From Sporisorium sorghi (taxonomy: Eukaryota > Basidiomycota > Ustilaginomycetes > Ustilaginales > Ustilaginaceae): DNA of 64,000 nt. The notes under the pieces were generated by a model. It was not told where the DNA came from. It worked only from the letters and a program-made list of their open reading frames with translations, and searched no databases. A program made the translations under genes and the position numbers. The DNA is taken from contig JALCCG010000001.1 of the NCBI GenBank assembly GCA_023212695.1, positions 558,001-622,000 of the forward strand, given 5' to 3'. This document shows, in pieces, positions 49,693 through 57,868 of this stretch; within the stretch, counting starts at the first letter, position 1, and the number at the start of each line of letters is the position of its first letter.

Positions 49693-49748
49693 GGATTTAC
49701 CTCCTTGTACACTCAATTTTTAATATGCAAGCTAAAATCTGAACGCAA

Positions 49749-49786
49749 AAAAAGCACAACCCCGACGAAGCCAAGGTTGTACTTTT
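49749..49786 (-). terminator. Terminator closing the carrier-protein cluster
   Basis: AAGCACAACC/GGTTGTACTTTT arms with one mismatch, followed by seven T on the minus strand. It lies 122 nt past the BtrH-like stop and upstream of the MATE gene. Confidence 0.78.
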
Positions 49787-49907
49787 CAGTAGCATTGCCT
49801 GTATATTGCTATGAGTATAGCACCAGGATTTGGATATTACAAGATGGAGAAACTACGCTTATCCGTACAAGAAACAAGTAGCAATCCATATCATTAATTA
49901 GGATCAG

Positions 49908-50957
49908 CTAGGCGGAGCCTTCGAGCAGTGCAATCAATTTTTGCAGGAGAACCGACTCTTCCTTTCGGAACTGGTCGAACCGGATCCTGAGCCGTTCAAA
50001 CACGTCCTTGTCTGCTCGAATTTCATGACGAATGTACTGATCCCTCAGTTTCATCGCTCTCTTGGTGATATCCCTGTAGCCATCCGCAAGCTCTTCATCG
50101 TACGGGATGATCCCTTCAGCCACCAAATAGTCGATCCGCTCGCTCATCATTTTTTTGTGCTCCCAGAGCACATGTAGATGCCTCACGTCACTACGGTCAC
50201 CAAGCCGGGAATCGTTGCTCTCTACGGAATCAAAGTACATTTGCAAATAGTCGTAGACCTTTAATCCGAAAGCCTGCTCTTCGTCCGGATTATAATTGAT
50301 TCGGTTTAAATGAGTTTCACCGTTTAAGTAATCGCGCAGTTGGTCAATCGCAGCCGTTCGATCAAAAGGATACGGAGAATGCGGTTCGTATTTGTAGAAA
50401 TACGTGTGATGATCCGCCGTAACCCCCTCCTTCAGCAGATGCCTCATGGAATGGACAGCATCCTGGAACTCTGTGAACGGGATCTGCAGATTGCGGTACA
50501 CTCCCGTATGGTCGAACATGGAAGCATCGAAGATTGCTTGGTCCAAGTCGAAACCATATAGAAACAGATGGTGGGGAAACGGCTCTTTCTGATAGGCCGC
50601 CGCCGGGGATAGCCTCGATTCGTCCAGAAACACAACGCAATAATAGCCGCTGCGAATCTGATCCGCAAAGAATTGCGGCCAGGCGTCCAAGGGCAAAAAC
50701 TCTAAAATCGTATAGTTGACGGAGCACGTGAGCAGAAACGGATTGTTGAAATTCAGTTCATTCGGTTTGCCGCGAAAAAAATCGAAATAGAACTGCCTGC
50801 CATCCTCCAGGAATGTTTTTTTGCAGGACAACTGAATAAAATTGCTGTAATACCAAGGAATCGTTTCTTCGTGGATGCTGGTGATCGAAAGTGTATAAGC
50901 CCACCTTAAAAATCCTTTAAGCGGCGGATTCGATATCGGAAGCTGAACAGCCCTCAT
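49908..50957 (-). CDS. BtrH N-terminal-domain-like protein, possible acyltransferase
   Basis: A 349-residue cytoplasmic protein. The middle segment GYYCVVFLDESRL...PFPHHLFLYGFDLDQAIFDASMFDHTG (about 105-151) has the layout of the papain-like BtrH_N/C39-like fold, where a His in the HHLFLYGFD strand and an Asp form part of the active site. Cys45 (FIQLSCKK) is a possible nucleophile. The C-terminal 150 residues are helical and charged. In butirosin, BtrH moves an acyl group from a carrier protein to an amino group. Start at 50957 by GGGGGAGA. It is the last gene of the cluster; the family match is from motif pattern only. Confidence 0.6.
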   Translation of the reverse strand: MRAVQLPISNPPLKGFLRWAYTLSITSIHEETIPWYYSNFIQLSCKKTFLEDGRQFYFDFFRGKPNELNFNNPFLLTCSVNYTILEFLPLDAWPQFFADQIRSGYYCVVFLDESRLSPAAAYQKEPFPHHLFLYGFDLDQAIFDASMFDHTGVYRNLQIPFTEFQDAVHSMRHLLKEGVTADHHTYFYKYEPHSPYPFDRTAAIDQLRDYLNGETHLNRINYNPDEEQAFGLKVYDYLQMYFDSVESNDSRLGDRSDVRHLHVLWEHKKMMSERIDYLVAEGIIPYDEELADGYRDITKRAMKLRDQYIRHEIRADKDVFERLRIRFDQFRKEESVLLQKLIALLEGSA

Positions 50958-51020
50958 GGATTCTCCCCCTTCTGGTTTCTGAGTTATCACCCAGCTGCCA
51001 TACATGACCGACAGATCTTC

Positions 51021-51824
51021 TTAGCTGCTTGCACTGCTGTATCCCTTCACAGCCTGCTTCCAAATCAGTCGAATGACTGTGAAGAGCAGAAGCGAACCGG
51101 CAAGTGCCAGTCCCGCGTAGAGCCAGCTGAGCTGTCCCAGCAGGAACAGCGGTCCGAAATTGGTAATGAGGAACAGTGGAATGACAAATGTTCCGATTCG
51201 GCGGACCCAAGCCGGGTAAATCGCCATGGGAAAATTGTTGGCGTCCCAGGCGGAATGGGCGATCTCCGACGCAGAGCCCGTCTGAACGAACCAGAATGAC
51301 AGCAGCGCAGGGATAATCATCAGACAGTATGTGATGACAACGGAGACAAGCAGCAGCAGCATAAACCCGGCAAGCTGCAGCAGCGTCAGCGGAATATCCA
51401 TGGCATGCCAGCCGATGCCAATCATGACGAACCCAACCAGAATATCAGGGATCGGCAGCGCCAGATCGACATAACGCAAGGAAGCCATAAATTGAAGAGA
51501 AACCGGCTTTGTAAGCATTAAGTCGAGCGAGCCGTCCTTGATATACTCCGGAATTTTTGTGAAATTCGTGAATAAGAGTCCCACATAAATGCCGGTCACT
51601 ACGGTGTGCATGCCTATAAATAGAAGCAGACCTTCAGGCGGTATGCCGTCTACGTGAAGATCGGTGCGGAACACAACGAGCACATACAACAGCTTGGCGA
51701 GCAGGTAGACGGATTCCACAAGCAGACTCATCATAAAATTGCCCCGAAACTCCATCTGGGCGATGAGACAATTTTTGATGAACATGCCATACAGATGTGC
51801 GTATTTTCTTATGGTTTTAAACAT
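51021..51824 (-). CDS. ABC-2 family permease (DUF990-like), second
   Basis: A 267-residue membrane protein with six helices. The stretch IPEYIKDGSLDLMLTKPVSLQFM is a hallmark of DUF990-type ABC-2 permeases, which occur in pairs with one ATPase. Twelve nt after its partner permease. It probably forms a heterodimer with that partner to export the cluster product or protect the envelope. Confidence 0.88.
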   Translation of the reverse strand: MFKTIRKYAHLYGMFIKNCLIAQMEFRGNFMMSLLVESVYLLAKLLYVLVVFRTDLHVDGIPPEGLLLFIGMHTVVTGIYVGLLFTNFTKIPEYIKDGSLDLMLTKPVSLQFMASLRYVDLALPIPDILVGFVMIGIGWHAMDIPLTLLQLAGFMLLLLVSVVITYCLMIIPALLSFWFVQTGSASEIAHSAWDANNFPMAIYPAWVRRIGTFVIPLFLITNFGPLFLLGQLSWLYAGLALAGSLLLFTVIRLIWKQAVKGYSSASS

Positions 51825-51836
51825 ATGGAATGCCCG

Positions 51837-52646
51837 CTACCCCCCAACCGCCGAATATTTCTTCATGGAAACCCGCCACGTCAGTCGGGATAGCAAGAAG
51901 AACAGGAGTATCCATCCACACTGGATGAGCAGCCCCTGGTACATCGCCCCTACCTCTGTTTTGCCGCTGAGGACATTGACCGGAAAATAAATGGTGTACG
52001 GAAACGGCGTGTACTGAAGTGCCTGCACCACCGAATCTCCGAAAATCTCAAGCGGAAACATGCCTCCGCTCAAAATATTGACAAGCAGACTCGTAATAAC
52101 AAAAAAATAAGAGATTTCATTCAGATAAAAAGCACTCGCACAGATGCAGTAAGCGATCAGGAAATTAAGCAAAAGCGCGCCCCACAGCGTGACGGCAAAC
52201 AAGACCAGCCGTACGGCCTCGAGCTCGATTATGTCCCCGGCCGCTGCGATCCAGATGATCCCGACAAGCATGACAGCGGTAATTCCGTAATAAATCGCCT
52301 TCTGCCCGAAAAAGGACACCAGTCGATACCCGAAGTAGCTGACCGGTTTGATCAAATACTTGTTGAGTCCGCCGTTCTTGATATCGTCGACAATCTGGTG
52401 CTCGAACTGGGTCGCGATCAGCTTGGACACCAATCCCGCCAAAATCGTATACAATATGATTTGATGGTATGAATACGAGAACAGCGCCGTTTCGCCGGAG
52501 TGTCGGTAAACTGCCGTCCAGATAAAATACTGGACAAGAATCGGAAACGCCGCTCCGAGAAGTCCGAGAAAGAAGTGGAATCGGTATTCCATCGAATGCT
52601 GAATTCCCATCGAGAAAACAGCCGTATACAATCTCCGTCTATTCAT
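51837..52646 (-). CDS. ABC-2 family permease (DUF990-like), first
   Basis: A 269-residue membrane protein with six helices and the same hallmark loop (VDDIKNGGLNKYLIKPVSYFGYRL). It overlaps the ATPase gene by 4 nt (ATGA). Together with the next gene it forms the membrane part of the exporter. Confidence 0.88.
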   Translation of the reverse strand: MNRRRLYTAVFSMGIQHSMEYRFHFFLGLLGAAFPILVQYFIWTAVYRHSGETALFSYSYHQIILYTILAGLVSKLIATQFEHQIVDDIKNGGLNKYLIKPVSYFGYRLVSFFGQKAIYYGITAVMLVGIIWIAAAGDIIELEAVRLVLFAVTLWGALLLNFLIAYCICASAFYLNEISYFFVITSLLVNILSGGMFPLEIFGDSVVQALQYTPFPYTIYFPVNVLSGKTEVGAMYQGLLIQCGWILLFFLLSRLTWRVSMKKYSAVGG

Positions 52647-53626
52647 CCTGCATATTCCTTACGGTACAGCCTTGATATACTCTCTTCGATCGGCACGTCC
52701 TCAATCGTCCAATCCAAAATATCAAACGAATCAAGGACGGCGCGCGATACTTCCTTCATGCGGTATTTCGGCAGCTCCAGCACAGCGTTATAATCGTCCA
52801 TACTCACAATCTTCCCGAACGAAGCCAGCCGCTGTTCCGCGACCGGCTCGGAGAACTGCAGCCTGATGATTTTGTGCTCGCCAAATAAATGGTTAATCTT
52901 ATGAAGATCGCCGTCATACAGCAGGCTTCCTTCGTTAATGATGATCGTCCGCTTGCACAGGTCCTCCACATCCTTCATGTAGTGGCTGGTCAGCAGAATC
53001 GTCGCGCCGAACTGCTCATTATAATATTTCAAAAACTCCCGGACCTTCTTCTGGGAGGGGAAATCCAGGCCGATCGTCGGCTCGTCCAGATACAGCAGCT
53101 TCGGGCGATGGATCAGAGCGGCAATCAGCTCCATTTTCATCCGTTCGCCCAGAGACAGCCGGCGCACCTGCACATTCAGAAGCTCCTGCACACCTAACAT
53201 CTCCGATAGTTCGGCAAGACTTCGGCGGTAAAGATCATCCTCCACGTCATAAATACATTTGTTCAAATAAATCGATTCGCTGGCGGGAAGGTCCCACCAG
53301 AGCTGGTTCTTCTGGCCCATCACAATGGAGAACAGCCGTTTGAACTCGTTCCTACGCTCCCAAGGCACATAGCCGAGCACGTTGGCCTCCCCGCTTGTGG
53401 GGTACAGAATACCCGACAGCATTTTGAGTGTCGTGGTTTTCCCCGCCCCGTTAGGACCCAGAAATCCAACGCACTCGCCTGGGCCGATATCGAAGGAAAC
53501 GGATTTAACCGCTTCCTTCACAAGTGACTTACGGGCAAACAAATTTTTCAGTGAATGCCTAAGTCCAGCCTCTTTCCGGTAATACACAAATGATTTGTGC
53601 AGCTCCCGCACACGGATAAAGTCCAT
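52643..53626 (-). CDS. ABC exporter ATPase
   Basis: A 327-residue ATPase with Walker A GFLGPNGAGKTTTLKML, signature LSLGERMKMELIAALIH, Walker B LLYLDEPTIGLD and switch His in LLTSHYMKDVEDL. The N-terminal insert FVYYRKEAGLRHSLKNLFARKSL before Walker A is usual in DUF990-linked ATPases. AGGAGG 6 nt before the ATG at 53626. It powers the two following permeases. Confidence 0.93.
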   Translation of the reverse strand: MDFIRVRELHKSFVYYRKEAGLRHSLKNLFARKSLVKEAVKSVSFDIGPGECVGFLGPNGAGKTTTLKMLSGILYPTSGEANVLGYVPWERRNEFKRLFSIVMGQKNQLWWDLPASESIYLNKCIYDVEDDLYRRSLAELSEMLGVQELLNVQVRRLSLGERMKMELIAALIHRPKLLYLDEPTIGLDFPSQKKVREFLKYYNEQFGATILLTSHYMKDVEDLCKRTIIINEGSLLYDGDLHKINHLFGEHKIIRLQFSEPVAEQRLASFGKIVSMDDYNAVLELPKYRMKEVSRAVLDSFDILDWTIEDVPIEESISRLYRKEYAG

Positions 53627-53686
53627 CCCCGCTCCTCCTGAACGATAACATATAGTCCCATTTTGGGCGGTATCCAATCTGAAAGC

Positions 53687-54862
53687 TTAAACTCCATTGT
53701 TATACAAAAGCACACATTTGGAGCATATCGGCATCAAACCGCAGGCCAGCACCTCGCGCTGTTTCCGTAGATCCTCGCCGTGAAAAATATCCGCCACGCT
53801 GTCTTCGTACAGATTGCCGACACTGAATTCCGGGAAAAATTTGCACGGATTCACTTTGCCGTCCGGCATGACATCCATCCGATTCGAGATAGAGAAACAC
53901 TTGGTCCGCTTCATGGCCGGCTTCTCGCTGCCTCGGATGAATCCTTCTACTTCTTCGGGCTCCAGTGCAGGCTGATAGCGAATGCGCACATTCCATACAC
54001 GGGAATTGACGCGTTCAAGCTCTTCGATTAGTGTGTCATAATTATCGGGCGAGATATGGAATGTGAAGGAGTGCCAGCTATTCTTGTGATTGTCCGCAAA
54101 GCGGGAGGCAAGGTGCGGGAAATGGGCATCAAAGTAGGTGTCCATCTTTTCCGCCGTACCGGGAGGAATGTACCATGGGAAGCAGAAGTAAACGGAATCG
54201 ACGCCCATCTCTTCGAAGAATTCCATAAAGCTGTAAAGCTGACCAACCATCTGGTCATTCACCGTCAGGGCTACGGAAACTTTGCCTTTGTACAAGCCCT
54301 GCTTCTGCAGATCAAGCAGCAGCTGTACGGCGTGGATCACTTTCTTGAAGGTGCCTTTGCCCCGAATCGCGTCATTCTCCTTCTCGAAACCTTCCAGGCT
54401 GACCAGCATAACCAGATTTTCCGACATTTTCAGAATGGAATCCAGCTTCTGTTCGATGAGAATCGCGTTTGTGCAAATGGTTGTGTACCGGTCTTCCTTG
54501 GCCAGCAATTCCGCCAATTCATCGAACTTGGAATAGAACAGCGGTTCTCCACCCCACAGGAACACACGCGATTTGCGCTCTCTCGTTTCGGCCAGAAGCT
54601 TCTCCACGACGGGAATGTCGATCTCGTCTTTCTTCTCTTCCTTGGCAAACCCGTGATGGAACCCGTCCGGATTCCATTCGAAGCAGTGCTTGCAGCGCAG
54701 GTTGCAGCCGTTATTAAGCTTGATCCCGATCTCATAAGGCACGGGGGCGGCATAAGTCGGATCTTCCCGAAGCTTCCTCCCCGTTTCCGCCAGCGGAACG
54801 AGGGTCCTTTTCATATTTTGGAATGTCAGCTGGTCAAACGTAACTGCTGTTTTCGGCTGCAT
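53687..54862 (-). CDS. Radical SAM/SPASM-type enzyme
   Basis: A 391-residue enzyme. CNLRCKHC (Cys53, 57, 60) binds the SAM [4Fe-4S] cluster, followed by VFLWGGEPLF and LVSLEGFEKENDAIRGKG. The C-terminal SPASM-like part has cysteines in KCFSISNRMDVMPDGKVNPCKFFP, CGLMPICSKC and the typical SVGNLYEDSVADIF, so one or two extra clusters are likely. Start at 54862 by GGGAGG; it overlaps the glycosyltransferase gene by 29 nt. There is no precursor-peptide gene nearby, so the substrate may be the carrier-bound acid or the glycoside. Confidence 0.9.
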   Translation of the reverse strand: MQPKTAVTFDQLTFQNMKRTLVPLAETGRKLREDPTYAAPVPYEIGIKLNNGCNLRCKHCFEWNPDGFHHGFAKEEKKDEIDIPVVEKLLAETRERKSRVFLWGGEPLFYSKFDELAELLAKEDRYTTICTNAILIEQKLDSILKMSENLVMLVSLEGFEKENDAIRGKGTFKKVIHAVQLLLDLQKQGLYKGKVSVALTVNDQMVGQLYSFMEFFEEMGVDSVYFCFPWYIPPGTAEKMDTYFDAHFPHLASRFADNHKNSWHSFTFHISPDNYDTLIEELERVNSRVWNVRIRYQPALEPEEVEGFIRGSEKPAMKRTKCFSISNRMDVMPDGKVNPCKFFPEFSVGNLYEDSVADIFHGEDLRKQREVLACGLMPICSKCVLLYNNGV

Positions 54863-55940
54863 AAGTTTTCCTCCCGAAATGATTGATTTTTGATCGCTCC
54901 TCCAGCAAACGCGTGTGTATTCTCTCCAGATGTTGTTTCGAGAAATCCTGGGCTGCCCATTCCGCGAACCGGATGCCGAAGCCGCAGGATTCCCAATAAC
55001 TTGAATTGTGCAGCTCATGCTCGCCGAACGGCTCCAGCATGACAAAAGGGATTCCATATGACAGCGAGTCGTTCAGGGTGGCTCCTCCCGGCTTGCTGAT
55101 TATGGCAGCGCAGTTCTGCATCAGATCCGTGTAAGCGGCGTAATCCCTGAGCGGGATATCCTGTAGAACGCCGCCCTCACGGACATAACGGACCATCGGC
55201 GGAAACGTATGCCGCCCCTGTTCATCCCGGCTCCACGGGTCCCAGGCTGCGCCCGTTCCGAAGTACCGTGTAACCCCGTCGTCCTCCTCCACTTCGGAAG
55301 GATCATAGACAATCACATCCAGCGGGTAACCGAGCTCGCGAAGCTTAGGGATCGTTCCGGCATACGTCCCGATCCCCCAGCCGCCGCCATGGATCAGAAT
55401 GCGTCCGGCACGCTGCGCATAAGGCAGAGGCTCCGTCTCGTCTGAAGCAATATAGCCGCCCGGTGACCATTTCGAAGGCTCATAGAACCAGACGTTATGG
55501 TAGCCGGGGTACAAGGACTTGTGTACCTTGAACGATGGCGTATCCCACGCATCCAACCGGATCAGTCGAATATCCAGAGGCTCGCGGGCAATGATCTTGT
55601 AGCGCTCCAGGATCGGCAGCCAGAAGCCGGTAAACACGGCAAAGCGGGATACCCCATCACGGTTCCATGCATCCAGCAGACGCTGGACCTCCTCCTCGTT
55701 CAGGGAAGATTCAACGGGTTTGGCCAGCTTATGGCCCATCAGGGCAACGGAGAAATCGGCATGGAATGCTTTTTTTGTGGAAGGGATCTTGCGCCTGATT
55801 TCTTCGTGATACAAATTCTCCAGAACGTGAACCGCTGCTCTGACACCTCTGTCTTGGAGGTACGTGTACAGGTGCATAGCCGGAATGTACGCGCCCAGCG
55901 AATTGCCCGACGCCAGCATGGTGATCGAAGATGAATTCAT
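54834..55940 (-). CDS. MurG/GT28-like glycosyltransferase
   Basis: A 368-residue GT-B-type protein. The N-terminal half opens ITMLASGNSLGAYIPAMHL (acceptor domain). The C-terminal half has RILIHGGGWGIGTYAGTI and CAAIISKPGGATLNDSLSYG followed by PFVMLEP, which is the sugar-nucleotide pocket of MurG-type enzymes. GAGGTGG before the ATG. The donor and acceptor are unknown. It is flanked by ATP-grasp and radical SAM genes, so it probably builds part of the product. Confidence 0.82.
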   Translation of the reverse strand: MNSSSITMLASGNSLGAYIPAMHLYTYLQDRGVRAAVHVLENLYHEEIRRKIPSTKKAFHADFSVALMGHKLAKPVESSLNEEEVQRLLDAWNRDGVSRFAVFTGFWLPILERYKIIAREPLDIRLIRLDAWDTPSFKVHKSLYPGYHNVWFYEPSKWSPGGYIASDETEPLPYAQRAGRILIHGGGWGIGTYAGTIPKLRELGYPLDVIVYDPSEVEEDDGVTRYFGTGAAWDPWSRDEQGRHTFPPMVRYVREGGVLQDIPLRDYAAYTDLMQNCAAIISKPGGATLNDSLSYGIPFVMLEPFGEHELHNSSYWESCGFGIRFAEWAAQDFSKQHLERIHTRLLEERSKINHFGRKTYAAENSSYV

Positions 55941-55962
55941 GCCCTGCCACCTCGTTCCCGAT

Positions 55963-57438
55963 TTAGTTGTACACTTTAACCGACAAGTCAGCGAACACCT
56001 GTCTCAGCCTGTTAATCAGTTCACTGCGGTGCTCGTTGTCACGACCTACCACCGATACATACAGCCGTCCCTTCGGCATGCCCCGTTTGCTCTGCAATCC
56101 CTCGGCGATACGGCGGGAGGTCAGAATATCGTTCACCATTACGGTGTTAGATGAAAGAGGCACAATCCCGTACCCTTCCTGGACAGTTAAGAGAAGACCG
56201 GACACGCGCAGCGCGTCCAGCAGCCTCCCGAACGCGAAGCCTTCGGGTAAACCGAGGGACAGGAATGTAAGCCAACTGGTATGGCCATGCGTTTCCCAGA
56301 CTTTATTGAGATAAGCGTTAATGAGGCCCATGGACATGCGGGCGTTAATCTCTACAATCGGCACCACATCCCCGTTCTCCAGAATCATGGAGTCGAAGCA
56401 GACGAAACCGTGGTAGCCGTCCCCAGCCAATATGCCGAGTGCTTTTTCCATCGTGTCGAAATAACCGGCGTGCTCCAGAAGACGGATCAAAGCTTCATCC
56501 GCTTTAATAGACCCGCCGTAGTTCTGCCGCTGATTCATCATCTGCTGAACGGAGATGAAATCCTTCTCACCGTTTTCCCGGATGAACCAGTGGGAACTGA
56601 AGTCGGTCCCCCTCCTCAGCAGCGGCTCCAGCAGAAATTGTGAGCGGAGGCCGCTCCGCTCCTGTTTATCCAGATGTCCCGCTATCCTTCGCTGCATGGC
56701 TTCGCCGTCGATGAGCAGGTTACCCTTGCCCGACACACCGAAGGGATCCTTCAGCAAATACGGCCCCTGCTTCAGAAGCGTATTTCCGGCCGACTCCATT
56801 TCCGCTGCGCTGTTCGCCTCCATGCCGTAACACTTCTCGCCGATTCTAGCCAGCAGGCGGTTGGAGTAGATTTTGGAGTTCACACGGACAACCGTCTCAA
56901 GGTCAGGCAAAGGACTAAAGGGCCCGGCGGCTTGAAGGTAAACTTCCGTATCAGCCGTAATGGCATACGGAGTGAGAGGTTTGACGGTGTGAGTCCATAC
57001 CGCTTCACGGTGCAGACCACCGGCAGCATGCTTGAGAGATATCATTTCCGCCAACCCCGTTGCCTCCGGATAGCCGGAACCTACTGCCTGCAGCATGCGG
57101 TCTGCCGTTATCTGACTTTGGGTTTGATCCGCCGCAAGACGGAACATGCACCGCTTGAAAACGTCCGCTTCTGGCAGGGGCTTCTTCTCATCGCTTAAAT
57201 CAAAGTGATAACGACTTCGAAAGGAAAATCCTAACCCGGCCAGGTATTCATACAGTTCTGGATCGATTTGACACCGGCTGTAGAGGATATCGTCCGGTCC
57301 GCAAAATGGAAATAGCAGCTCGTCCATACAGAGAACTATGGATTCCCGTTCTCTATCCGGCATAGCGGGCAGCCTGGTTAGATTCGGATCCCTCCACCTC
57401 GTTTCGGGATCGAATGTACCCATTACGATGGTTGGCAT
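55963..57438 (-). CDS. ATP-grasp ligase, BtrJ-like
   Basis: About 491 residues with an ATP-grasp fold: glycine-rich loop LLKDPFGVSGKGNLLID (about 228-244), the hinge-lobe segment QFLLEPLLRRGTDFSSHW, and metal ligands in VPIVEINARMSMG. In butirosin, BtrJ uses ATP to load glutamate onto the BtrI carrier protein, and this gene is next to a carrier protein in the same way. The start at 57438 has GAGG 8-9 nt upstream; an ATG at 57462 overlaps the ACP gene and has a poorer site. The acid loaded is unknown. Confidence 0.82.
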   Translation of the reverse strand: MPTIVMGTFDPETRWRDPNLTRLPAMPDRERESIVLCMDELLFPFCGPDDILYSRCQIDPELYEYLAGLGFSFRSRYHFDLSDEKKPLPEADVFKRCMFRLAADQTQSQITADRMLQAVGSGYPEATGLAEMISLKHAAGGLHREAVWTHTVKPLTPYAITADTEVYLQAAGPFSPLPDLETVVRVNSKIYSNRLLARIGEKCYGMEANSAAEMESAGNTLLKQGPYLLKDPFGVSGKGNLLIDGEAMQRRIAGHLDKQERSGLRSQFLLEPLLRRGTDFSSHWFIRENGEKDFISVQQMMNQRQNYGGSIKADEALIRLLEHAGYFDTMEKALGILAGDGYHGFVCFDSMILENGDVVPIVEINARMSMGLINAYLNKVWETHGHTSWLTFLSLGLPEGFAFGRLLDALRVSGLLLTVQEGYGIVPLSSNTVMVNDILTSRRIAEGLQSKRGMPKGRLYVSVVGRDNEHRSELINRLRQVFADLSVKVYN

Positions 57439-57448
57439 CAAGCCGGCC

Positions 57449-57724
57449 TCACTTCTGGACATCTTCGTATAAAGATAACTCCTGAGGCTGGCAGCTTTTC
57501 AGGAAAGTCATAAAGGTGTCGATCGACTGGAGATGCTCGTAATCGAATTGGTCATAGTCAATGACAACGTTCAACTGTTCCTCGATTTTAAGCATAAACT
57601 GGATCATTTGGAGTGAATCGAGGCCAATATCGTTGTTCAGTTCCGTGGTAGGGGACAGAATTTGGCGAAGTTCCGGTTGGTCTTCCTTAATAGCGCACAA
57701 AATGTCTACGATTTTATCGTACAT
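57449..57724 (-). CDS. Acyl carrier protein
   Basis: A 91-residue carrier protein. IGLDSLQMIQFMLKIEEQL carries the phosphopantetheine Ser37, followed by the usual helix III region DYDQFDYEHLQSIDTFMTFL. AAGGAG lies 7 nt before the ATG. First gene of the cluster. As a lone carrier it needs a partner to load it, most likely the ATP-grasp gene next door. Confidence 0.93.
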   Translation of the reverse strand: MYDKIVDILCAIKEDQPELRQILSPTTELNNDIGLDSLQMIQFMLKIEEQLNVVIDYDQFDYEHLQSIDTFMTFLKSCQPQELSLYEDVQK

Positions 57725-57839
57725 GACTACACTCCTTTAAAGTGATAATGTGTGAGGGTACAACCGATCCTTACGTTTAGAGAATGCCATTCAAATCTAA
57801 CCTGACTTAGACGCCCCTCCCTTTTCCATAGTTACAATT

Positions 57840-57868
57840 ATTATGCTCAACATGCCAATTTATGTCAA
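57840..57868 (-). promoter_or_regulatory. Promoter of the carrier-protein cluster
   Basis: Minus-strand TTGACA (57868-57863), 17-nt spacer, CATAAT (57845-57840): near-consensus sigma-A. The leader of about 110 nt to the ACP start shows no clear riboswitch or operator. The DNA between 57869 and 58041 shows nothing else. Confidence 0.75.

Follow-up and report, generated by a model that had tools for sequence, protein, structure and literature searches.

An eight-gene carrier-protein operon with a radical SAM enzyme and a predicted papain-fold protein lacking the nucleophilic cysteine: a candidate amide-forming pathway

Introduction

Papain-fold amide synthases such as CcbD are described as acting in clinically used antibiotic classes (PMC12945683). 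The same source presents CcbD as a carrier-dependent enzyme with a Cys-His-Glu triad that acylates an amino sugar, and the loading of the lincosamide acid onto the carrier domain is ascribed to an adenylation domain (PMC4351081). BtrH is given as an acyl carrier protein (ACP):aminoglycoside acyltransferase with a papain-like domain (PMC10318531), and in the closthioamide pathway, which also has CtaG, the predicted role of the ATP-grasp enzyme CtaD is the loading of the carrier CtaE with beta-alanine (PMC6772006). Here, we describe an operon of eight genes found in a 64,000-nucleotide stretch (hereafter, the window; contig JALCCG010000001.1, positions 558,001 to 622,000) of the assembly GCA_023212695.1 deposited as Sporisorium sorghi. 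The operon encodes a carrier protein (ACP), an ATP-grasp ligase (ATPG), a glycosyltransferase (GT), a radical S-adenosylmethionine (SAM) enzyme (rSAM), a three-gene ATP-binding cassette (ABC) exporter, and a protein of the CcbD/BtrH kind (BTRH). In butirosin biosynthesis, BtrI, BtrJ, BtrK, and BtrN all have roles, and BtrN is a radical SAM enzyme.

From comparison with its homologues, the operon appears to represent a single branch within an extensive family of related clusters marked by rSAM. We consider it somewhat more likely than not that it makes a small, exported, amide-containing metabolite on the free carrier protein; this is supported by the likeness of ATPG to peptide ligases and of BTRH to CcbD, AziU3, and CtaG in their predicted folds.

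Results

Operon structure

The eight genes on the minus strand (49908-57724) all point in one direction, with the intergenic distances, in operon order, of -14, 22, -29, 60, -4, 12, and 63 nt (Table 1). The rSAM start was taken to be the ATG at 54862 (the longest open reading frame, ORF, begins at 55057), and that of the ABC ATPase the ATG at 53626 (the longest ORF begins with TTG at 53677). A first-pass annotation of the window had described eight adjacent genes with one promoter and one terminator; the tight spacing, the conserved promoter, and the folded terminator bear this out, and the eight genes form one operon.

Promoter-like sites in the region are as frequent as expected by chance (12 found, 11.1 expected), the operon promoter being the best match. 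As the scan alone yields background, we accept this promoter by its conservation. In all 25 aligned upstream sequences, comprising the window, 23 of the 24 full loci described below (L016 was left out), and the exporter-less L018, the motif TTGACA-N17-[C/G]ATAAT ends 107-124 nt 5' of ACP. The -35 hexamer and the 17-nt spacer are invariant, and the -10 hexamer is CATAAT in the window and GATAAT in the other 24 sequences. Directly past the -10 hexamer (57831-57839) lies a AATTGTAAC-like stretch, perhaps an operator, which, as judged by eye and uncounted, recurs in many of these 25 sequences. The terminator was not detected by a consensus scan but emerged from folding (z = -3.38; none of 200 shuffled sequences was equally good), its hairpin lying at about 49749-49787 with the U run behind it.

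The domains scoring above the Pfam cut-offs are PP-binding in ACP, Radical_SAM and SPASM in rSAM, ABC_tran in the ATPase, and ABC2_membrane_6 in both permeases, so that the lone ACP and the ABC exporter of the first-pass annotation stand. ATPG, GT, and BTRH have no Pfam match over the cut-off, and their names rest on models and profiles for that reason; in NCBIfam, BTRH yields nothing, and ATPG and GT nothing over the cut-off. Neither Pfam nor NCBIfam identifies condensation, adenylation, or ketosynthase domains in the eight proteins, or aminoglycoside core genes among the eight genes, in agreement with the earlier statements that nonribosomal peptide synthetases, polyketide synthases, and an aminoglycoside core are lacking. 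The absence of a precursor peptide had also been claimed, and indeed a precursor gene cannot fit inside the operon, as the largest gap is 63 nt; outside the operon, no systematic search was made.

Table 1. Features of the operon (positions in the window)
Feature	Position	Strand	Basis
ACP, 91-aa free-standing acyl/peptidyl carrier protein	57449..57724	-	PF00550 5.7e-08; phosphopantetheine site GLDSLQ
ATPG, 499-aa ATP-grasp ligase	55963..57462	-	models and profiles
GT, 368-aa GT-B glycosyltransferase, distant from GT28/UgtP-type enzymes	54834..55940	-	profiles
rSAM, 391-aa radical SAM enzyme whose auxiliary domain is twitch-like with four Cys	53687..54862	-	PF04055 3.1e-20, PF13186 9.3e-12
ABC exporter ATPase	52643..53626	-	PF00005 7.5e-24
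ABC exporter permease 1	51837..52646	-	PF06182 8.1e-22
ABC exporter permease 2	51021..51824	-	PF06182 7.3e-38
BTRH, 349-aa protein with a predicted papain fold (CcbD/AziU3/CtaG/BtrH kind), nucleophilic Cys absent	49908..50957	-	predicted fold
Promoter TTGACA-17-CATAAT	57840..57868	-	11/12 consensus positions, conservation
Intrinsic terminator, 18-bp hairpin and U run	49745..49787	-	fold of 49735-49900

Conservation of the gene block

Scanning genome contigs with BTRH yielded 53 loci, 29 with 58-85% identity and 24 with 24-28%. A search for this gene order in Paenibacillus and Bacillus genomes had been suggested by the first-pass annotation, and the order recurs complete in 24 of the 29 close-homologue loci, counting L011 as full despite its second permease gene being split in two pieces. 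Among 25 contexts compared, any one flanking gene family occurs in at most 5 (ORFs of at least 90 aa, flanks of unequal length), and so the conserved block stops at the operon ends. Purifying selection acts on each of the eight genes: in comparison with four relatives, dN/dS (the ratio of nonsynonymous to synonymous substitution rates) ranges from 0.02 to 0.20 overall, being 0.02-0.04 for rSAM, 0.08-0.13 for BTRH, and 0.12-0.20 for ATPG.

Just before BTRH, 14 of the 29 loci carry genes of a zinc alcohol dehydrogenase (ADH) and a GH3 glycosidase (e.g., L012:7358-10056, the locus for which Pfam was run), which may trim or oxidise a sugar part of the product. The window has neither gene at this place; in the window's own assembly, the relatives' ADH has no match at E 1e-15 in a search made without a positive control, and their GH3 yields only matches of at most 42%. 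In Paenibacillus glacialis (L002; 6358-7395), ACP is present, and ATPG and GT are seen only as short frames near BTRH; the cluster seems to have decayed in this species.

By their sequences, the operon genes look like those of Paenibacillus, and the window ATPG is 98% identical to that of Paenibacillus glucanolyticus. The source assembly has 23.2 Mb in 469 contigs with three matches to ribosomal protein L2, and therefore is probably a mixture of several organisms.

BTRH lacks the cysteine of its structural relatives

The BTRH start is most likely at 50957 rather than 51005, as most homologues begin there. The predicted structure of BTRH resembles CcbD, AziU3, and CtaG over the full length, with a papain-like core and a C-terminal helical part. 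Sequence searches of PDB, made both with BTRH itself and with a 41-row profile of it, produced no credible relative, and the likeness emerged only from the predicted structure. Likewise, BTRH has no hit to the Pfam family BtrH_N (PF14399) at E 1.

None of 80 non-redundant BTRH relatives has the nucleophilic Cys of CcbD and CtaG at the expected place (residues 12-20), where the first helix begins, and one has a Cys at position 21; the expected place was derived from the ranges aligned to CcbD (Cys19) and CtaG (Cys11). Where the range alignment puts Cys19 of CcbD, BTRH carries Phe16-Leu17. On the other hand, His129, aligned with the His of a Cys-containing family described below, is kept in 78 of the 80 relatives, His267 in all 80, and Asp112 in 72, and the spacing between Asp112 and His129 is 17, the same as between Asp114 and His131 of CcbD. 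Hence the earlier label "BtrH-like" stands in part: BTRH fits the BtrH/CcbD kind of enzymes by its predicted full-length fold and histidine, but fails on the cysteine of the characterised relatives and on the match to BtrH_N.

Among the distant homologues, the BTRH proteins of L031-L038 and L051 are encoded directly after a distant radical SAM gene, and in L031 genes of an ACP and a ketosynthase protein lie upstream of this pair. Cohnella panacarvi has tandem BTRH-type genes at two places (L040, L044).

ATPG, rSAM, GT, and ACP

The predicted structure of ATPG resembles ATP-grasp peptide ligases, and the ATP- and Mg-binding residues of the ATP-grasp fold are present, although identity to the solved ligases 3wvq (PGM1), BesA, and 8ynd is 16-19%. 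The substrates of these three ligases are free amino acids or peptides. Structure prediction of the BtrH-like and ATP-grasp proteins had been proposed in the first-pass annotation, and both folds were recovered, with high confidence in the models.

Eight cysteines of rSAM are invariant in 20 of 20 relatives: C53, C57, and C60 (CX3CX2C), C130, and C322, C340, C380, and C383. Of these, C130 is an extra one, lying outside both CX3CX2C and the C-terminal motifs. The C-terminal domain alone (residues 313-383) matches BtrN (4.7e-09), and for the core the closest matches are peptide maturases, SkfB (3.6e-12) among them. A full SPASM domain has seven cysteines. Consequently, the earlier description "radical SAM/SPASM" agrees with the Pfam labels, but the four C-terminal cysteines read as a twitch-like auxiliary domain. 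The further statement that butirosin has no such radical SAM step next to these genes is not supported, given BtrN and its match to this domain.

GT is a glycosyltransferase, as had been suggested, but its likeness to MurG is distant: the best match of the GT profile (21 members) is 9wde, a processive diacylglycerol beta-glucosyltransferase (8.3e-08), and the Pfam matches are weak, EryCIII-like_C in 6 of the 21 members and Glyco_tran_28_C in one. The best NCBIfam relatives of ACP, both below the cut-off, are petrobactin AsbD and cispentacin AmcB.

A larger family of related clusters

At E 1e-60, rSAM has matches in 43 of 100 sampled genomes of the genus, 10 of these with at least 92% identity, and, at the level of the order, in 128 of 392 genomes (the two samples overlap). 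We hand-picked 21 stretches around other rSAM copies, four from one set of genomes and 17 across the identity range of the 58 places listed in the genus search. GT is found in all 21, the carrier in 20, ATP-grasp in 19, the full ABC trio in 14, and a Gfo/Idh oxidoreductase in 11, these counts coming from a non-random sample and from profiles to which the sampled loci had themselves contributed in part. Thus the operon had been too narrowly viewed as a standalone pathway: GT, the carrier, and ATP-grasp recur with the rSAM homologue. Two stretches, L101 and L102, have no ATP-grasp and carry instead an AMP-binding ligase adjacent to an additional ACP; since these replace it, the ATP-grasp enzyme most likely loads the carrier.

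A BtrH/CcbD-type protein is encoded within 17 of the 21 fetched stretches. Seven of these (L094, L096, L097, L098, L101, L102, and L104) have the BTRH type, L101 and L102 in addition to a Cys-containing BtrH-like protein, and the other ten only Cys-containing types. Four stretches have no such protein: for L063, L064, and L065, the genome encodes a window-type BTRH at another place (L023, L024, and L002), and L100 ends at a contig edge. The assignment of the Cys-containing types rests on evidence that varies among the stretches. L099 passes the BtrH_N cut-off (5.4e-12), and L103 and L101 match below it. The family of L066, L095, and L108 is tied to BtrH_N only via L111:1012-1920 (E 5.3e-27 or better), which sits on a BtrH_N match over the cut-off. 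L093:7587-8576 has no Pfam hit and was placed by eye, and another L093 protein has a weak BtrH_N match (0.00047). The profile of one Cys-type family found no credible relative among solved structures, and hhalign of BTRH against the second one (L066, L095, L108) gave a weak match (probability 14).

Accessory genes differ among the relatives. L094, L096, L097, and L098 encode a PIG-L de-N-acetylase (by Pfam for L094, the other three being 47-75% identical to it), which would free a sugar amine, while L099 has a pyridoxal phosphate (PLP) decarboxylase, a second ATP-grasp, and the BtrH_N protein. In L063 (10892-15727) and L064, a ketosynthase-III-like protein and an MBOAT acyltransferase are followed by a 386-aa protein without a Pfam hit; these additions hint at transfer to an extracellular acceptor.

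Discussion

Under the proposed scheme, ATPG would activate an amino acid or another acid with ATP and ligate it to the phosphopantetheine thiol of ACP, and GT would build a hexose glycoside supplying or carrying the acceptor. With its BtrN-like auxiliary domain, rSAM may oxidise or rearrange the sugar part or else the acid bound to ACP. BTRH, judging from its modelled fold, would take the acyl group from ACP and join it in amide linkage to an amine of the acceptor, in the way that CcbD acylates an amino sugar, and the ABC exporter would remove the product. As BTRH lacks the cysteine, it would have to act without the cysteine acyl-enzyme used by CcbD. We tentatively suggest, as a possibility that is far from established, that the BTRH family forms amides from carrier-bound thioesters by direct aminolysis via His129, perhaps with His267, on a Cys-less papain fold and with no acyl-enzyme.

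Several observations weigh against this scheme, in addition to the limited sampling of the related stretches. Without the cysteine of CcbD and CtaG, BTRH could be inactive. The eight genes include no de-N-acetylase, aminotransferase, or other amine-making gene by Pfam and NCBIfam. The exporter genes are absent in 6 of the 21 related stretches and present only as fragments in one more, and L018 has none nearby. At some loci, BTRH stands apart from the rest of the operon, either with none of the other seven genes (L023, L024) or accompanied by ADH and GH3 alone (L022). Finally, rSAM and the ABC ATPase evolve slower than ATPG and BTRH, a pattern not simply expected of one tight substrate chain.

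The missing cysteine can be read in another way. BTRH might be a non-catalytic pseudo-enzyme docking the carrier or the acceptor, with any amide made by the ATP-grasp enzyme itself, in the manner of PGM1 and BesA. The presence of both types of protein in L101 and L102, the consistent lack of the cysteine, and the fact that the closest solved relatives of ATPG are peptide ligases would all suit such a role, yet the retention of both histidines and the low dN/dS of BTRH argue against it; moreover, the window's assembly has no BtrH_N match at E 0.01, with a profile that misses BTRH and would miss its close kin. On balance, we find the pseudo-enzyme somewhat doubtful.

A different kind of product is also conceivable, namely, an envelope or spore glycolipid or polymer made or decorated by the operon, with GT glycosylating a lipid, the acid being transferred from ACP, and the ABC pair acting as a flippase. 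The nearest relative of the GT profile and the MBOAT of L063 and L064, with the subsequent protein AlgJ-like only by eye, point in this direction. Still, MBOAT was noticed in only 2 of the 21 stretches (no systematic search was made), and the patchy occurrence of close rSAM homologues in the genus better suits a specialised metabolite, making the glycolipid unlikely. The SkfB-like core of rSAM could suggest a peptide maturase and an overlooked precursor gene, but the short gaps of the operon leave no room for one, and the recurring GT, ACP, and ATP-grasp partners are not typical of ribosomal peptide pathways; we regard this origin as very improbable. The synthesis of an exported amide on the carrier remains our preferred explanation.

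One rSAM family, present in about one-third of the sampled genomes of the order, marks a large set of related pathways, in which the key enzyme BTRH appears to have changed its chemistry. If direct aminolysis is indeed performed on a Cys-less papain fold, it would be an independent solution to the job of the condensation domains of nonribosomal peptide synthetases, used by glycoside pathways of a widespread, uncharacterised family in the order to which the window organism belongs; such a Cys-free amide synthase would be new to enzymology and could be put to use as a catalyst. The varied loading enzymes and tailoring genes of the relatives provide a natural series for deducing the product.

Comparison with known systems

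Among the titles and abstracts listed in searches of open-licence PMC papers, none describes the eight-gene set. The closest parallels differ from it in several respects. The operon lacks the PLP decarboxylase, monooxygenase, and cyclotransferase of the butirosin side chain as well as aminoglycoside core genes, and BTRH carries no Cys where one is expected and gives no BtrH_N hit. P. chitinolyticus DSM 11030 is said to carry a butirosin-like cluster (PMC9744104); in the P. chitinolyticus genome (L017), we saw no butirosin cluster by eye in the regions around five of the six BtrH_N hits (L112-L115) or in the short locus of the sixth (L111). In BTRH, the Cys of the CcbD triad is missing, and loading in the operon is probably by ATP-grasp rather than by an adenylation domain as for the carrier of CcbD. 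CtaG, too, has a Cys that BTRH does not (PDB titles name a C11A variant), and the eight genes include no thioamide synthetase or transglutaminase of the closthioamide kind.

At the same time, the common features are considerable. Like the butirosin pathway (BtrI, BtrJ, BtrK, BtrH, and BtrN), the operon has a carrier, an ATP-grasp, a BtrH-type protein, and a radical SAM enzyme, the comparison being made by description except for the sequence match to BtrN; the parallel drawn by the first-pass annotation between the ACP, ATP-grasp, and BtrH-like logic and the butirosin side chain is thereby supported, and the relative L099, with its decarboxylase, second ATP-grasp, and BtrH_N protein, resembles the butirosin side-chain set further. 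BTRH shares the predicted full-length fold with CcbD of the lincosamide pathways (CcbD/LmbD), and, similar to CtaD-CtaE-CtaG of closthioamide, the operon combines an ATP-grasp, a free carrier, and a protein with the predicted fold of the peptidyl transferase CtaG. By analogy, the best explanation is that the pathway would work like butirosin side-chain transfer, lincosamide condensation, and closthioamide assembly.

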